Below, one piece after another: positions 22,889 through 54,339 of a stretch of 64,000 nt of DNA. The translations under genes were made by a program, and so were the position numbers. Origin of the DNA: Prototheca cutis (lineage: Eukaryota > Chlorophyta > Trebouxiophyceae > Chlorellales > Chlorellaceae); the NCBI GenBank assembly GCA_002897115.2, contig BCIH01000005.1, positions 1,421,639 through 1,485,638 of the forward strand. Reading direction: 5' to 3'. The notes beneath the pieces are model-generated. The model had not been told where the DNA came from. It saw nothing but the letters and a program-made list of their open reading frames with translations, and ran no database searches. Numbering within the stretch: the first letter of the stretch is position 1; the number at the start of each line of letters is the position of its first letter.

Positions 22889-23471
22889 NNNNNNNNNNNN
22901 NNNNNNNNNNNNNGTGTTCGTGGTGCACCGCTCGATTCACAACAAGCTCCCATGGCCCCAACAATGATCCACCTGCAGTCCGGGGTCAGCAGGCAACGGA
23001 TGCTGGACAGCCTCGGACGTCAGACAGGAACACTGTGGTGGGTCTGAGCTGGATCATCACCGTGGCCTTTTTGGCCATCGCCATCATCTCCATCTGGGAA
23101 AAGTGCGGTGGGAGTAAGAGGGGGAGGGAATGCATGGGGTTTGGATTGCTGTGGTAATGAATGGCATTGCTGTTGGACGGAAGCTGCTTGATCCCGGGAT
23201 GATGGCGGGGGCCAGAATGGCAGGCACAAGAGGGCCTGGCGGCCTTGCATCACATTCACGTTCCCTGATGAGACAAAATACAGCTTGACTCAACCGCACG
23301 TCCACTCCGAACCACCCCCACTGCAGGAGGCTGAACAAGGTTCCCCAGGGAGAGCTGGAGCGGGCCTTCATCCTGAAGAAGGACTCTGGTCCCAGCGTCG
23401 ACGAACGCACGAGCTCGGGCACCTCCGGCCCCAAGGGCGAAGGCGCGTCCGGGAGCCTGCCGGCGAACTGA
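22070..23471 (+). CDS. Four-transmembrane protein, unknown function
   Basis: Exons 22070-22132, 22356-22517, 22689 to about 22806, 23028-23102 and 23327-23471 give a small multi-pass protein. Four hydrophobic segments are visible: KVIIGLTVLQ-IIFTIVVGAV (split by intron 1), TIGFSLAVNLAIIFGTIYVL, GAAVYIFFWGGVFSITIS, and LSWIITVAFLAIAIISIW. A loop with paired Cys (NLCQLNV ... GRVCDFV) lies between TM1 and TM2. A polar C-terminal tail of about 45 residues, rich in Ser/Gly/Lys, follows. The topology resembles MARVEL-type tetraspan proteins, but I cannot name a family. The intron between exons 3 and 4 contains two compound (TG)n-(G)n repeats and a 25-N assembly gap, so a further exon could be hidden there. 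Confidence 0.72.
22802..22913. repeat. Duplicated (TG)n-(G)n repeat ending in an assembly gap
   Basis: Two compound repeats, each TG dinucleotides passing into more than 14 G residues, sit about 35 bp apart in one intron. The second runs straight into 25 N (22889-22913), so the true length is unknown. Confidence 0.95.
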
Positions 23472-43273: not shown

Positions 43274-44357
43274 GGTTCCCTCGCCAGCATCACTTCTTTG
43301 TTTCTCTTTCTGGACTACTGTGGATGGATCGTGGGCCTTGGCGCCGCGGTGAGTTGATGGTCGAGACTTGTCATGGTGTACTGCGCAGCTGTGGCGCGCC
43401 GTCGCCGTCGAATCTCTTCGAGTCCCCGTCGAATCCCCGTCGAATCCCGTCGAGAGCGACCACTGACCCCATGACAACCGCTTTCGTTTTGCGCAGGCCA
43501 CNCTGTCGGCCAAGTGTGTGGACGGCCTGACTACAGGGATCATCTGGGTGGCCGTGGTAAGTGTCGTGAGATCCGGAAAAGGGGCGTGACGATGTCCTGC
43601 TCGATAGTGTCTCGAGTGCGCGGTGACTGCCGCAGTGCATGGAGAGCGACGCTCGTCCTTTTGCACTATCTTGCACGCAGTGGTTCCAATTCCTGGTGCT
43701 CGTCGTCTTCACCCTCTCACGCTTCAACTCGAAGCTGTCCTTCCTTGACAGCATCAACAATCACTTCCTTGGCATGGTGCGGAGGGCTGTGAAGGCTAAT
43801 GGAGAGTAGCGCATGTGACTATCTCAGGGCGTTTAAGCACATACACTTCAGTTGTTTGTTCGCCGCTGAATCCCTCTGATTCCACCTCCTCCAGTCTGCC
43901 GTCATCTTCATCATCATCAACGACTCTGCCCGGAAGCTGAAGGACTCCACCACTGGCGCAATCTCCAGCGCATGCGCCGCGCTGCTCGCGAGTGGCATCG
44001 TGATTGTCATCACCAATGCCGTCATTGTGAGTCCGAATGCCAGGGACTGTCATGCAAGATGGGACTCGCTGCTCGGGGTCTGATGAACAATAGCAGACGT
44101 CAACCGAACCCTACCCGCTGACACGCTCCCCCACACACACTCCAGATGCTGTGCTTGGCTACTGAGACAGGCTTGCAAAAGGAAGCGGCAACTCGCAGCG
44201 ACCCCAAGCCAGTAACAGCATACCCAGGTATGATACCTTCGGATTGGAGGGCACTGGTTGCAGTACGACTACCATTTTTGTTAAGCCCGAGTAGTGATGG
44301 GTGCGAATCTGTGCCCCTCATGCAGGGACGGGTGATAAGCAGACAAGCCCTGTGTAG
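43274..44357 (+). CDS. Four-transmembrane protein, tandem paralogue B (first exon not resolved)
   Basis: Second member of the tandem pair. Exons: GSLASITSLFLFLDYCGWIV GLGAA, ATLSAKCVDGLTTGIIWVAV (one ambiguous base), WFQFLVLVVFTLSRFNSKLS FLDSINNHFLGM, SAVIFIIINDSARKLKDSTT GAISSACAALLASGIVIVI, and MLCLATETGLQKEAATRSDP. These align one-to-one with paralogue A (WFQF(F/L)VLV, T(T)GxIW, FLGM, D(S/T)xx(A/G)L). The intron phases match. The tail GTGDKQTSPV with stop at 44357 is tentative. The start codon lies upstream in 43100-43270, but no exon could be fixed; a gene start after a conserved DYCGW-type first helix is expected. Function unknown. Confidence 0.65.
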
Positions 44358-44910
44358 ATTTCCAGCGCCACGATCAGTGAATACCCCTCCGAGCCTGGCC
44401 TGCTGGCAAGAGCCACATGGAGCGTGCACAGACGTCCATCGTTTCACAAGGGGATGCTAGGACTACACTGTTGGAGCCCAGCTTTGCTCCAAGGAGTTTC
44501 TGTCAGCAATTCCAAGGGAATGCACAAATGCTGTGACCGCGCCTGCATGAGAAGTGGTGCAGAGTCCAGTCTGTTTGCACCCCGTGTTTTCGAGAGGTCC
44601 TAAACGAGTATCCATCATAAACTGAACAGGCATCCCACTGAATTGTCTTACTACTCAAGAAGATGTACGCACGCACATGTTCCATCACAAGTTCACTGAT
44701 GTGGGGACGGTACACAGGTGGTGTCAGCGTTGCCCAAAATCACCGCCGACCATTCAATGACATCCATTTTGGCGACGACCCACGTCCAACCTGGTCACCG
44801 TATGCTTCCCACCGGAAACGAACGAATGCTTTGGGTCCCTGGTATCGAAAGTTGCATGTTCATCCTTAACATGGGAGGTGATTTACCACGATGATTTCGT
44901 GTACAGAAGC
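44358..44910. other. Intergenic spacer
   Basis: About 550 bp between plus-strand genes. No gene, RNA or repeat recognised. Confidence 0.45.
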
Positions 44911-46089
44911 ATGATGATCGCGGGGGATCTTGGTGGGGGTTTCGGTTTCTTGTCTCGGACCCAGCCGGCGCGGGCTCGAGCCCCTCGACACCCATTCCCA
45001 CTATCGATCGTAAGCGCTGCAGCCGAGAACAGCGGGGCATCCCGACACGTGCCGTCGAATGCACTGGCCAGGTGGTGGCAAAAATGTGTCGCAAGACATG
45101 GGCCCGCAGCGCAAAAATCAGCTGATCGACTGCGCGGGCAGGTTGCCAAGCTGAGAACGGCCCTTCCCCGTCAGGTGATGCTTCCTGCCATGGCGGATGC
45201 TTTGTGCCGTGGCCGGAACTGTGCTCGAGAAGAAAGCATTCCTGGGTTGTGTTTTCTTCAGATGTGCACATGCTGTGTCAGTTTTTGGATGGAAAGCAAG
45301 CAGTTCCCCGGGTGCGGCTGCGTTGGGTACGAATGGCCCGTGGGGAAACCATTACCGGTGCCATCGGTTGGCGTCTTCATTACTAGCACCCAGATCGCCT
45401 GTCCTAAACATTCCCCTCCCTCAATGACAACAACACAAGCAGGCACGATCCCTGCAGCTGAGGCTGCAACCTGTCCAGCAGAATGTGGCTGCGGTCTGGG
45501 CTCGGCTGCCCTGGCAGGCACGGCAGGTTGCCGCGGGTACGGTCCTTGTGCTTGGGACGGCGTTGGCCGTCCACAGCCTCAGTCGCCACTCTATGATGCT
45601 GCAGGCACGAATGCAGGTGTATCTGGAGTGCAATGTGTGCTGCCAATGAGATGCCGGTTGAACCAGGGCATCGTCCAGTGTCTTTGAAGTCGACGACCTA
45701 GTTCCTCCCGCAGGTGCGGGCGTGGGAGCAAGAGAGGTCGACACTGGTCATGCGGCAACTGGAATTGCAATCCCGTATCGCCCAACTGGAGGTGTGTGGT
45801 TGTTTTCCTTTGGTCTGTCAAACCCTGCCATGTGTGCAGCAAGCGTGGGACGGTGCAATCATGATGCCGCGCTTAGTGCCCCTCCTCTTGGTACTCTCGG
45901 CGGTATGGTGCATGAACCAGGGCCATTCACGCTGCGCACTATCTTTACCCTCTGCCTAAGGATGCCGGGCGAGGGAGAAACGAGGCTGAGGCTCGACTGG
46001 CGGAGGCCGTGGCGCAGGCGACGACTGCGGCGGCGCAAGCGGCCCAAGTGGCAGCACAGGCCGCGAATGCCTGCGTCATCACGCGATGA
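44911..46089 (+). CDS. Coiled-coil membrane protein, possibly organellar, unknown function
   Basis: Not recognised. Four exons with phase-0 joins give about 200 residues. The N-terminus (MMIAGDLGGGFGFLSRTQPA, then Arg/Pro/Ser-rich) resembles an organelle transit peptide. Next come a basic helix (LARWWQKCVARHGPAAQKSA DRLRGQ), the helix ARSLQLRLQPVQQNVAAVW, one membrane segment VAAGTVLVLGTALAVHSL, and after it the coiled coil VRAWEQERSTLVMRQLELQS RIAQLE. The last exon is Ala/Gln-rich (EAEARLAEAVAQATTAAAQA) and ends CVITR at 46089. Architecture (transit peptide, coiled coil, TM, coiled coil) is compatible with a plastid or mitochondrial membrane organiser, but that is inference only. Confidence 0.62.
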
Positions 46090-46386
46090 CATTTTGGCTG
46101 AGCTCAACGTTCCTTGACCCGGTTGTGTTTGGAAGGAATTTACTGGGCTCCAGGAGAAGGAAACAAGAGAGGTCTACTGCCTTTCATTTCGCGGCAGATG
46201 CTCGGACGCGGCGAAACCCACACGATCTCTCATGTCGGCGGAAAAATTCTCGAAAAAGGCTGCAAGCGACATGCGCTGCAATGGTAATGGTAACTGCCAC
46301 ACCCCGTTCCGCCCGAGCTCGACATGATGCTTTTGTGAGGGTCTTGTTGAGCCCAATCGGATGTAGGAAGACCGGCAGTCGAGGCC

Positions 46387-48235
46387 ATGGGCCTCATGAC
46401 GGGGTTCAGCGCTTCGCGCTGGGTTTTCGGGCCCCGGCCGCAAGTGCACTGCCGGGCAGCAGCGCACGAACGGCGTGGTGCGCCCAGTCCACATGACGTT
46501 CGCATGCACACCTCTGCATCTGGCAAGACTGCAAAGGGCCAGGACTTGAACAGCCTGCGGAGTGCACACGGCGTGGGCTCTGGCGGGGTCCCCAGCCTGG
46601 GGCAGGCATTCAGCCAGGCACAGCCCCTGAGGCAGCACAGGGCACCTGGAAAAAGCCATGGACCGAAGAAGGGTCCTGCCCCACAGGCAGACGGCAGCAG
46701 CAGGAGGCAACCGCCCGCACGGGAGCAAAGGCCGACGGGCCGGCGGCGCCGCAAGGACAGTCATGATGCCGGATCCGATGCTGAAGATGATGAGGTACGG
46801 ACCTTTGTTCGTCGATGCTCTAACCCATGGGTGGTGATGACTGCTGCCTGTTGGTTGCAGGGGTGTGGCATGCCGGCCACTGGCGACATGGGCGCGGGGT
46901 TCCTCATTGGCTAGGTCACATGACGGCCAATGCCCTCTTTTCCCTTGCTGCAGCTGGCGTTTCGTTGGGAGCAGTTGGCATCAGCCATGCACGATGTCGT
47001 CGTGCCTCGGGCCCCTCCCCCGGCGGACGGCCCAACGGGGGGCGACTGGGATCCACAGATCGCGTTCCTGGAACAAGGGCTCGGTCTGGGGCCGGCAGCC
47101 ATCCACCGCATCGCCAGGGTTCGGCCAAGCCTATTCAACTACAAAGCCGCGACGCTCGAGCGCAAGGCACGATACTTCCGGGAGTCCCTTGGACTCAGGT
47201 ACGAGGAGGTGTTTTTTGAGGAGGTTGGCGACTGGGAGAGGGGAGAAACTTGGCCGGGCTTTCCCCCAAGAAAGGGCAGGACTGGACATCCATGCACACA
47301 CCGCGCCTCCCACAACATACATTGCAACGCTCCATTCCCTAGCCCTCCCATTTAGCTCGGAGGCACTACGGAGCCTGGTCTGCCGGTTTCCCCGGGTACT
47401 GGAGTACGACCCCGAGGCGACGTTTGCGCCCCGACTGGATTTCCTGCGCAACGAGCTGGGCATTGCCGACGGTGTGGAGCTGGCCCGGGTGGTCGTGCGG
47501 TGTCCCTCCCTCCTGGAGCTTCGACCGCAGGAAACGCTCGCGCCGCATGCCAAGGCGATCGGAGACGCGCTGGGTCTGACGCAGCGGGAGGTGGGCCGGC
47601 TCGTGGCGCGGTGCCCGGGGCTGTTGGCTGCTGCGCCTGCAGCCCTGGCAGAACGTCTGGCATTTCTGGAGCATCGCGTGGGTNTGGACTCGGCGCAGAG
47701 GACGGCCGTGGTGAGGCGGCACCCGGCAATACTAGCCAACAGCGTCGAGGCCATGGCCGAGCGCCTGTCGTTTCTGCGCGACGGCGCAGGCCTAGCCCCC
47801 GAGCGTGTGGTGCACGTGGTGTCGAGGCTGCCACAGGTCCTGGGCCTGTCGGTGACCCGCAACCTGTGGCCGAAATGGCGTTACCTCACGCGGGAACTCG
47901 GAGGTGATGCAGACACCCTGGCCACCCACCCCGAGTACCTGAGCTTGAGCCTGGCGGGTCGGATCGTGCCGCGGCACCACCTGCTCCTCGCGCGCGGGTG
48001 CTGGCAGAGCCCCCTGCCCATGAACAAGCTGAAATGCAGCGATGCCGCGTTTTTCGCTGCCCTGGGCGAGGGAGCAGCCGAGGCGCTGGACCGTCTCAAG
48101 CGAGCCATGTCGGCCAATGGGTCCATGGACACCATCCTTGCCTCACTCGGCTGGGGAGGGCCNGGCACCGCCCTGCGCGGGGCACCCAGCGCCCGAGCGA
48201 TTGCGGCGAGGCGTGCCGCGGCCAAACCGCGCTGA
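46387..48235 (+). CDS. mTERF-domain protein, organelle-targeted
   Basis: Mitochondrial transcription termination factor family: helical repeats that bind organelle nucleic acids in mitochondria or plastids. Exon 1 (46387 to about 46796) encodes a basic, Ser/Arg-rich leader ending DAGSDAEDDE, consistent with targeting plus a disordered region. Exon 2 starts LAFRWEQLASAMHD. The repeats are clear: FLEQGLGLGPAAIHRIARVR PSLF, ALRSLVCRFPRVLEYDPE, FLRNELGIADGVELARVVVR CPSLLEL, IGDALGLTQREVGRLVARCP GLL, FLEHRVG (ambiguous base), AVVRRHPAILANSVEAM and RVVHVVSRLPQVLGLSV. The C-terminal block HPEYLSLSLAGRIVPRHHLL, with the basic end AARRAAAKPR, is typical. Stop at 48235. Convergent with SF3A3. Exact paralogue class not assignable. 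Confidence 0.92.
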
Positions 48236-53301: not shown

Positions 53302-54004
53302 ATGAAGGTCGACTGCGGCCCTGCCGCTCACAAGAAAATGTATACTTTCTCTGTGTGGGACGACTGCATGCACACGATGTGTGTGTGTGTGGGGGGGGAG
53401 GGGGGGTTTGGTGGTGCCTTCAGTACAGATGACCCTCTGGAGCTCGGTGGCAGGGGGCATGTCAGGCTCGACGTGTGGCCCCTCGCGCCGAGAAAACGAG
53501 CCCTACGCACAACACACGTGTACCCCACCATCCAGTGGTGCAGAGGCCATGCGTGGCAGCCTTGCATATTGCTTTACTCATTCTTTGAAAATGGTTGTTA
53601 CTGCGCCGTGCTGGCAACCCCCTTTCTATTTTTTTTTCCGCTTTGGGCACGGGTCTTTTGACCCGTGCCCGGGCCTGTTCAGGCTGCAGCCCCCGGTTCC
53701 CTCCTTGCTGTCCACTTGCGCACTGACCGCAAGGTCTGTCTGACTCTCCTTCCCCGTCGTGGCTGGCTCACAGCAATCTGCGCGCTTGTTCTGCGAGCCA
53801 GGCTCCGAACTCGCATGCTGGCAGCGCAGCCCAGTCAGACGCTGCCCTGGGCCAAAGCATGCTTAACTCTGTAGACAGGCATGGTGATTGAGAAGATTGA
53901 GTCATCATGGCGTGGGCAACATGCACTGCATCGGGCTCAGCGTGGGATCACCGACAAAATGGGGTCGGAAGGGCAAAAGGAAGGCGAGGCAAAAACTCGC
54001 CAAA
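53302..54004. other. Intergenic spacer with (TG)n-(G)n repeat
   Basis: About 700 bp. Contains a TG run passing into G-runs at about 53382-53406 and a T-run near 53628. No coding motif recognised. Confidence 0.5.
53991..53995 (-). terminator. RNA polymerase III T-run after the permuted tRNA
   Basis: Five T residues on the minus strand, 10 nt after the last base of the tRNA 5' half, as expected for a Pol III terminator of a tRNA-type gene. Confidence 0.7.
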
Positions 54005-54086
54005 TACTAAAGTCACGCTCTGCCAACTGAGCTATAGGAGCTCATAATCATGCTCCCACCGTGATTTGAACACGGGACCTTGACCT
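54005..54086 (-). tRNA. Circularly permuted tRNA-Thr (AGT anticodon)
   Basis: Read on the minus strand, the tRNA 3' half (positions 38-73, bases 54086-54051) comes first, then a 9-nt spacer (54050-54042), then the 5' half (positions 1-37, bases 54041-54005). Rejoined at 37/38, the halves make a perfect 73-nt cloverleaf: acceptor GCTCCTA with TGGGAGC plus discriminator A; D arm GCTC/GAGC with loop AGTTGGCA; anticodon stem TGACT/GGTCA (one G-U pair) with loop TTAGTAA, anticodon AGT; variable loop AGGTC; T arm CCGTG/CACGG with loop TTCAAAT. A-box (TAGCTCAGTTGG) and B-box (GTGTTCAAATC) are intact but in reversed order. The break lies at the canonical tRNA intron site. No CCA is encoded. A T5 terminator follows. 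Confidence 0.93.
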
Positions 54087-54339
54087 GCTCATAGGTTTCG
54101 ATGCGGCGCAACGTCATTTTTGCACCATTTGTCGAGATCGCGGCGATCATGCCCTCGCTGGCGGGCGCCCTTGAGCCGTCGGATCTGGCTTGCCTGTGCG
54201 CGAAACAAGTACGCATGCAATGGCGCCTTTAGTGCGACAGGAGAAGGGCTTCTGGGGCGCCAGGACATATTGATTGCATGCATTGTTGACATTATGGCCT
54301 GAATAGGGCAGGGAGACAAGCGCAAGGGGGTGCGGCTCG

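Follow-up and report, generated by a model that had tools for sequence, protein, structure and literature searches.

A circularly permuted tRNA-Thr(AGU) gene belongs to a set of at least 30 permuted tRNA genes found in a green-algal genome

A real permuted tRNA gene is present in the stretch of DNA analysed here (64,000 nucleotides, hereafter the window): the 3′ half of a tRNA-Thr(AGU) is encoded before its 5′ half. This gene is very probably functional, and it is most likely a functional nuclear permuted gene of type II (junction 37/38), the product of which would be matured via a spliced RNA circle. The sequence-only reading of this locus had missed that at least 29 further permuted tRNA genes accompany the window gene in this genome. 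Judged by its sequence, the window gene seems an ordinary member of a rare known kind, and the extent of permutation in the genome appears to be the surprising part.

Results

Structure and detection of the window gene

The features of the gene are listed in Table 1. The sequence-only reading had placed it at 54005..54086, with the 3′ half first and a 9-nt spacer, which is exact; the strand, which is minus, had been omitted. The 3′ half comprises nt 38, the 3′ strand of the anticodon stem, the variable loop, the T arm, the 3′ strand of the acceptor stem and the discriminator A. The 5′ half comprises the 5′ strand of the acceptor stem, the D arm, the 5′ strand of the anticodon stem and loop nt 32-37. 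Both halves lie on the same strand without a terminator between them, and a T-stretch follows the 5′ half.

When the halves are rejoined at 37/38, they form a full cloverleaf with the conserved U8, U33, TTC and A58. All positions are paired in the acceptor (7/7), anticodon (5/5) and T (5/5) stems, and the D stem is complete in the fold (4/4). The earlier description of four perfectly paired stems is thus correct as far as pairing goes but needs a qualifier, since two pairs, 6.67 and 31.39, are G.U (by eye). The A and B boxes, described as intact and in swapped order, are both present; the loop TTAGTAA and the discriminator A can be read in the parsed gene; and the downstream T-run is a T5 run.

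Table 1. Coordinates of the permuted tRNA-Thr(AGU) gene and its parts (window positions), and of one ordinary gene elsewhere in the genome
Feature	Position	Strand	Remark
Permuted tRNA-Thr(AGU) gene	54005..54086	minus	order 3′ half - spacer - 5′ half; matched by covariance model R1 (trained without Thr)
Leader end	54087..54094	minus	splice-site helix predicted between nt -3 to -6 (54089-54092) and nt 32-35
3′ half, tRNA nt 38-73, 36 nt	54051..54086	minus	identical in C10 copy
B box region, nt 52-62	54062..54072	minus	from sequence
Intervening spacer TGATTATGA, 9 nt	54042..54050	minus	loop of acceptor hairpin; without T4 run
5′ half, tRNA nt 1-37, 37 nt	54005..54041	minus	identical in C10 copy
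A box region, nt 8-19	54023..54034	minus	covered by pattern match G000:C5:1475655-1475672
Anticodon AGT, nt 34-36	54006..54008	minus	
T5 run, likely RNA polymerase III terminator	53991..53995	minus	starts 9 nt past nt 37
Ordinary tRNA-Leu(TAG) with intron, eighteenth ordinary gene	L147, about 180-322	plus	read by eye

The gene was detected with R1, a covariance model of the permuted layout, which was built from eight ordinary tRNAs of the same genome, rotated at 37/38 and aligned. Thr and Gln were left out of the training set to avoid circularity. R1 matched 54086..54005 end to end with 68.6 bits (E 1.3e-16, 67 kb searched). With E values up to 10, the only other match in the window was a 15-nt piece (8.1 bits), and none was full-length. 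As the sequence-only reading had predicted for standard tRNA scans, ARAGORN reported 0 tRNAs in the window and Rfam gave 0 matches at the gathering threshold. Weak Rfam matches over the gene, YrlA among them, were rejected, as they lie far below their gathering scores.

The rejoined 73 nt were predicted to fold into a cloverleaf of -27.0 kcal/mol (z -3.56, a value matched by 0 of 200 shuffles), in which the fold model adds two pairs within the anticodon loop. The fold of the whole unrejoined transcript was uninformative (z -0.57; 55 of 200 shuffles as good). In its centroid, the T arm, an acceptor hairpin with the spacer as loop, the D arm and the anticodon stem all form. The held-out match and the rejoined cloverleaf support the reading as a permuted type II (37/38) tRNA-Thr(AGU) gene.

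It was also considered whether the locus could consist of two half genes joined in trans, like the split tRNAs of Nanoarchaeum. In N. equitans, the tRNA halves lie at separate loci. The halves seen here are indeed separable units that join at 37/38, but they lie 9 nt apart without a T-run between them, the only T-run being the one after the 5′ half, and one transcript is therefore expected. The 9-nt spacer and the lack of a terminator between the halves do not fit a split, trans-spliced tRNA with halves at separate loci, and joining in trans is altogether very improbable.

Permuted and ordinary tRNA genes in the genome

For a census of the genome, loci were chosen by ungapped B-box and A-box patterns, together with neighbouring loci, and judged by R1. 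All permuted genes of the census have their junction at 37/38, because R1 covers, and the search therefore addressed, this junction only. The B-box pattern GGTTCRANYCC occurs at 185 places in the genome (reversed pattern, 151), of which 149 are contained in the examined loci and 36 lie outside.

In this partial census, 30 permuted genes with 22 anticodons were found on 11 contigs, a lower bound. They encode tRNAs for Thr (AGT twice, CGT), Gln (CTG, TTG), Pro (TGG), Asn (GTT twice), Ala (AGC three times, TGC, CGC twice), Arg (TCT), Ile (AAT twice, TAT), Tyr (GTA), Cys (GCA), Gly (TCC, CCC), Glu (CTC three times), Met (CAT), Leu (AAG), Val (TAC) and Ser (CGA, TGA). Inspection by eye of the G1-C72 pair and the anticodon stem suggests that the permuted Met(CAT) is an elongator. 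A chance arrangement or an assembly error at the window locus is so improbable as to be negligible: nothing was found in its favour, and both the E value of 1.3e-16 and the recurrence of this layout at 30 loci, spread over 11 contigs, stand against it. Chance or tandem half genes were likewise rejected on this E value and the 9-nt spacer.

The R1 score was at least 41 bits for 28 of the 30 permuted genes. The remaining two, Leu(AAG) with 30.5 and Ser(TGA) with 28.5 bits, are not clear of the background (28.0 bits for an ordinary Pro gene, 28.7 bits for locus L128) and were accepted on their stems. Manual re-parsing of Leu(AAG) moved the start of its 3′ half 7 nt ahead of the R1 placement, and Ser(TGA) was parsed by hand from L070 (G000:C2:1778000-1778740, minus strand), where an 80-nt spacer with A-rich stretches separates the halves.

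Across the 30 genes, 506 of 510 positions in the acceptor, anticodon and T stems are paired (counted before the Leu(AAG) re-parse), U8, U33, TTC/ATC and A58 are present without exception, and the spacers range from 9 to 80 nt. Paralogous permuted copies keep their halves (72 or 73 of 73, 73 of 74, and 72 of 72 positions), while the flanks have diverged in most pairs, with Glu and Ala as exceptions. The leaders of the Glu copies are about 70% common and their spacers 78-89%; the spacer is identical in two Ala(AGC) copies, and similarity between the Ala(CGC) spacers is 85%. The Glu and Ala copies with similar spacers were probably duplicated after permutation. Some permuted genes lie close together: Thr(CGT), Asn(GTT) and Met(CAT) are found within 3.3 kb at G000:C18 ~44258-47547 (L121 149-232 and 1489-1580, minus; L135 1437-1531, plus).

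Ordinary genes amounted to 18 with 11 anticodons. Seventeen came from the Rfam tRNA search and were typed by ARAGORN, and the count is a lower bound because 63 of 246 Rfam candidates were scored. They are Lys (CTT), Arg (ACG, CCT), Phe (GAA), Met (CAT; an initiator by our reading), Leu (CAG, CAA), Asp (GTC) and Pro (AGG, CGG). The eighteenth, Leu(TAG), was misread by ARAGORN as Phe and is unlisted by the Rfam genome search.

No isoacceptor was found in both forms. For eleven amino acids (Thr, Gln, Asn, Ala, Ile, Tyr, Cys, Gly, Glu, Val and Ser), every gene found was permuted, and this partial census yielded neither a permuted nor an ordinary gene for His, Trp or the Thr(TGT) isoacceptor. B-box places fall within permuted genes in 22 cases and within ordinary genes in 14 (15 with the odd locus L154). 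The resulting 36 or 37 places nearly equal the 34 by which the pattern exceeds its reversed control, so that this B-box class may have been covered almost in full; most genes in it are permuted. The total of 30 is not unbiased, because the A-box patterns favour some tRNA types. From these sequence data, it is likely that tRNA genes of this genome usually have the permuted layout and that translation would depend on RNA circularisation for most tRNAs.

Several loci were left out of the 30: L128, L145:405-467, L147 (the ordinary Leu gene with an intron), L154 and L069 (14.6 bits, chance). L047, L105 and L135 gave further ARAGORN calls with relaxed intron settings, and these calls are outside the census. 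L128 (~1448-1531, plus) carries a degenerate, Ala-like permuted tRNA that may be a pseudogene of the permuted type; its anticodon is GGC and its T arm is shortened. At L154 (~254-322, plus), an odd sequence resembling a tRNA has a good T arm and could not be typed by ARAGORN. At L145 405-467 (minus), a lone 3′ half of tRNA-Phe with one change relative to the ordinary gene is followed by T-runs, and the 5′ half is absent from the ~640 nt upstream (L176). A frame upstream of this half resembles a TnpB/Cas12f-type zinc-binding end (PF07282, E 3.5e-5), with 24.3 bits and thus below the cut-off of 26.3. Such ends are found in Fanzor elements.

Proposed maturation and the splice-site signal at leader ends

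According to the model that we favour, RNA polymerase III would produce one transcript consisting of leader, 3′ half, 9-nt spacer, 5′ half and trailer. In the predicted precursor fold, the anticodon stem would close the molecule, and the spacer would be the loop of a hairpin formed by the acceptor stem. Leader and trailer would be treated by the tRNA-splicing endonuclease as a split 'intron' at 37/38 and both cut off, and a ligase (RtcB or a plant-type ligase) would join nt 37 to nt 38 to give a circle. RNase P and RNase Z would then cut out the spacer, and CCA would be added. For the window tRNA, we infer transcription, the circle, the order of the steps, the identities of the enzymes and charging.

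The genome holds two loci with a tRNA-splicing-endonuclease domain above the cut-off, and RtcB is covered by four exon pieces at one place. Ordinary tRNAs with 37/38 introns (Asp, Pro, Leu) imply that the organism in any case has a working splicing route.

A functional permuted gene could also do without a free circle, if the spacer were removed by RNase P and RNase Z at the outset and the halves, held together by base pairing, were sealed at 37/38 later by endonuclease plus ligase. The acceptor hairpin and T arm that these enzymes recognise do form in the predicted precursor, and the DNA does not show the order of steps. For red- and green-algal permuted tRNAs, however, RT-PCR is reported to have shown circular intermediates, as described in the parts of PMC3978253 considered here, and we regard the circle-free route as unlikely compared with maturation through a circle.

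In the bulge-helix-bulge (BHB) geometry, nt 32-35 are expected to pair with nucleotides 3 to 6 before the 3′ cut. We scored leader-end pairing in nine registers using one gene per anticodon (22 genes), with leaders dealt among genes as the null. In register -3, 59 of 88 positions pair, compared to 45.9 (sd 3.2) after shuffling, and 3 of 10,000 shuffles were as good; in each of the other eight registers this was the case for at least 725 of 10,000. Before the re-parse of Leu(AAG), which raised the helix count of this gene from 1 to 4, 0 and then 1 of 2000 shuffles were as good in register -3. Among the ordinary introns, Asp, Pro(CGG) and Leu(CAA) show 4/4 pairs in this register and Pro(AGG) 2/4. 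The duplex energy of the leader with loop and trailer was -5.15, compared to -3.39 (sd 0.41) for shuffles, with 0 of 10,000 as low. Between paralogues (ten pairs), the last 8 leader nucleotides are 79% identical compared to 38% further up. Because of the register -3 pairing, the duplex energies and the paralogue conservation, the leader ends look like intron ends across the permuted set.

Individual genes vary, and 12 of the 30 have at most 2/4 helix pairs. The sequence-only reading had proposed the BHB motif as a check on leader and trailer, and the outcome was mixed: the relaxed helix is weak at the window locus (3/4 pairs) and significant over the 22 anticodons, but the second helix of a strict BHB, leader with trailer, was not significant across the permuted set.

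A second copy and the search for an ordinary counterpart

Searched by BLAST against the complete assembly (19.9 Mb, 23 contigs), the gene and its flanks matched one further place, on contig C10. The halves of this copy are identical to those of the window gene at 73 of 73 positions. Its spacer of 14 nt is unrelated (identity 0.29), the leader identity is 0.26 ungapped, and the flanks are unrelated. Over the last 8 leader nucleotides the identity is 0.12, i.e. the leader end is not conserved. About 150 nt from this copy, in convergent orientation, lies a permuted tRNA-Gln(CTG) gene with a 39-nt spacer (L002, G000:C10:41257-44345, 1244-1354, plus).

An ordinary tRNA-Thr(AGT) gene elsewhere in the genome had been named as something to look for, and none was found. 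BLAST, which is insensitive to diverged tRNAs, matched only the two permuted loci; as a gauge of its sensitivity, 20 plant-type tRNAs found 6 places in the genome, one being a permuted Gly gene and five being ordinary genes already known. A Thr-type A-box pattern with up to 2 mismatches occurs at 14 places, and Thr halves were found at two of them, both permuted; a divergent ordinary gene with 3 or more A-box mismatches could escape this pattern. Thr(CGT), the sole other threonine tRNA found, is likewise permuted.

These data bear on the possibility that the window gene is a silent relic or pseudogene. The weak splice-site helix and a leader end not shared with the second copy would fit a relic. 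On the other hand, all stems are intact and the T-run is in place, the second copy matches at all 73 tRNA positions despite divergent spacer and flanks, and neither BLAST nor the A-box pattern found an ordinary gene for the AGT anticodon. A relic is therefore a quite improbable explanation, and a functional permuted gene is the reading we retain.

Likely terminators and upstream elements

A run of four or more T within 30 nt past nt 37 is present in 30 of 30 permuted genes, compared to 5.3% of random window positions, and such a run was likewise found in 16 of 16 ordinary genes tested. Upstream, TATA, TTAAA or TAAAT starts 40-52 nt before the 3′ half in 10 of 30 permuted genes, or 6 of 22 when one gene per anticodon is counted. 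Of the ordinary genes, 2 of 16 have such a motif starting in -55..-38. An 18-nt slot that full was obtained in 3 of 1000 shuffles (mean best slot, 5.5), a value that is optimistic since the three motifs were picked after a first look at the data; for this reason, the cluster is only suggestive of a real signal of permuted genes. No TATA-like element is present in the 160 nt upstream of the window gene.

The cluster recalls the red alga Cyanidioschyzon merolae, for most genes of which a TATA-like sequence within 50 bp upstream is reported. For some green-algal permuted genes, only ambiguous AT-rich regions are described upstream, and the swapped order of the A and B boxes is regarded as unexpected for standard TFIIIC binding (these points from the parts of PMC3978253 considered here). 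If our reading is true, RNA polymerase III must start on genes with the B box before the A box, perhaps aided by the upstream TATA-like element in a third of the permuted genes.

Discussion

A 2014 review, considered here in part, counts 34 permuted tRNA genes in six algae and one archaeon, with a maximum of 11 per genome (PMC3978253). The closest counterpart of the window gene in it is tRNA-Thr(AGT) of C. merolae, a permuted type II gene with a 37/38 junction (Table 1 of PMC3978253), which has the same isoacceptor, junction, order of halves and downstream T-stretch; it has a 24-bp spacer instead of 9 nt. According to the same review, 11 of the 43 tRNA genes of C. merolae are permuted, at several junction positions, compared to at least 30 permuted genes here, where only 37/38 was searched. 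The genes listed there for Ostreococcus, Micromonas and chlorarachniophyte nucleomorphs have short spacers, a relaxed hBH motif and, in all but one, the 37/38 junction; they number 2 to 6 per genome and belong to Ser, Leu, Cys, Arg, Asn and iMet, with no Thr among those listed. Two more permuted nucleomorph genes appear in the part of PMC4494063 considered. The longest spacer given in the part of PMC3978253 considered is 74 nt, compared to 80 nt in Ser(TGA). The permuted tRNAs of the archaeon Thermofilum pendens and the split tRNAs of Nanoarchaeum equitans also depend on the tRNA-splicing endonuclease, with a T. pendens junction at 59/60 rather than at 37/38 as in the window gene (same source).

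The carriers named in the sequence-only reading, a red alga, prasinophytes and nucleomorphs, form an incomplete list, to which the trebouxiophyte Auxenochlorella belongs as well. For strain UTEX 250-A, of this related genus, permuted tRNA genes were reported in 2025, found after the tRNAscan-SE set had proved incomplete; this alga is photosynthetic and has haplotypes of 22.0 Mb (from the part of PMC12636532 considered), whereas the genome studied here has 19.9 Mb and no light-harvesting match. A literature search for permuted tRNA with Prototheca or Chlorella returned only this work and its preprint. For P. wickerhamii, tRNAscan gave 64 tRNA genes, with all tRNAs present except selenocysteine, and the part of PMC7941945 considered does not mention permutation for them. 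Such a near-complete tRNAscan set fits poorly with a mostly permuted set in a relative.

Permuted tRNA genes, once a rarity, are seemingly as common as ordinary ones in this genome, or commoner, and they are the only source found for many of its tRNAs. The cell probably must splice RNA circles to make many tRNAs, and standard annotation would miss much of the tRNA set in such genomes. The genome also offers a place where the splice-site needs of the endonuclease when the 'intron' consists of two free ends, RNA polymerase III transcription with swapped A and B boxes, and the spread of permuted genes are testable.

Proteins encoded in the window place the organism. For SF3A3, the closest named species is Auxenochlorella protothecoides (79% over 42% of the query), with an environmental protein ranked ahead of it (62% over 100%). 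For Rab GDI, matches with a species name rank behind others by E-value and include Parachlorella (72% over 53%), Helicosporidium (74% over 53%) and the Auxenochlorella hybrid (81% over 54%); a protein of 190 residues from no named species reaches 97% identity over 45%. A search of the genome gave no match to a light-harvesting protein, so that the organism is probably colourless and Prototheca-type, a member of the Auxenochlorella-Helicosporidium-Prototheca lineage. The label 'alga' used in the sequence-only reading needs the qualifier that the organism is probably colourless. The GC content of the window is 60.4% (base counts). Single N bases are scattered through its assembly and may mark heterozygous sites left unresolved; positions 22889-22913 form a run of 25 N.
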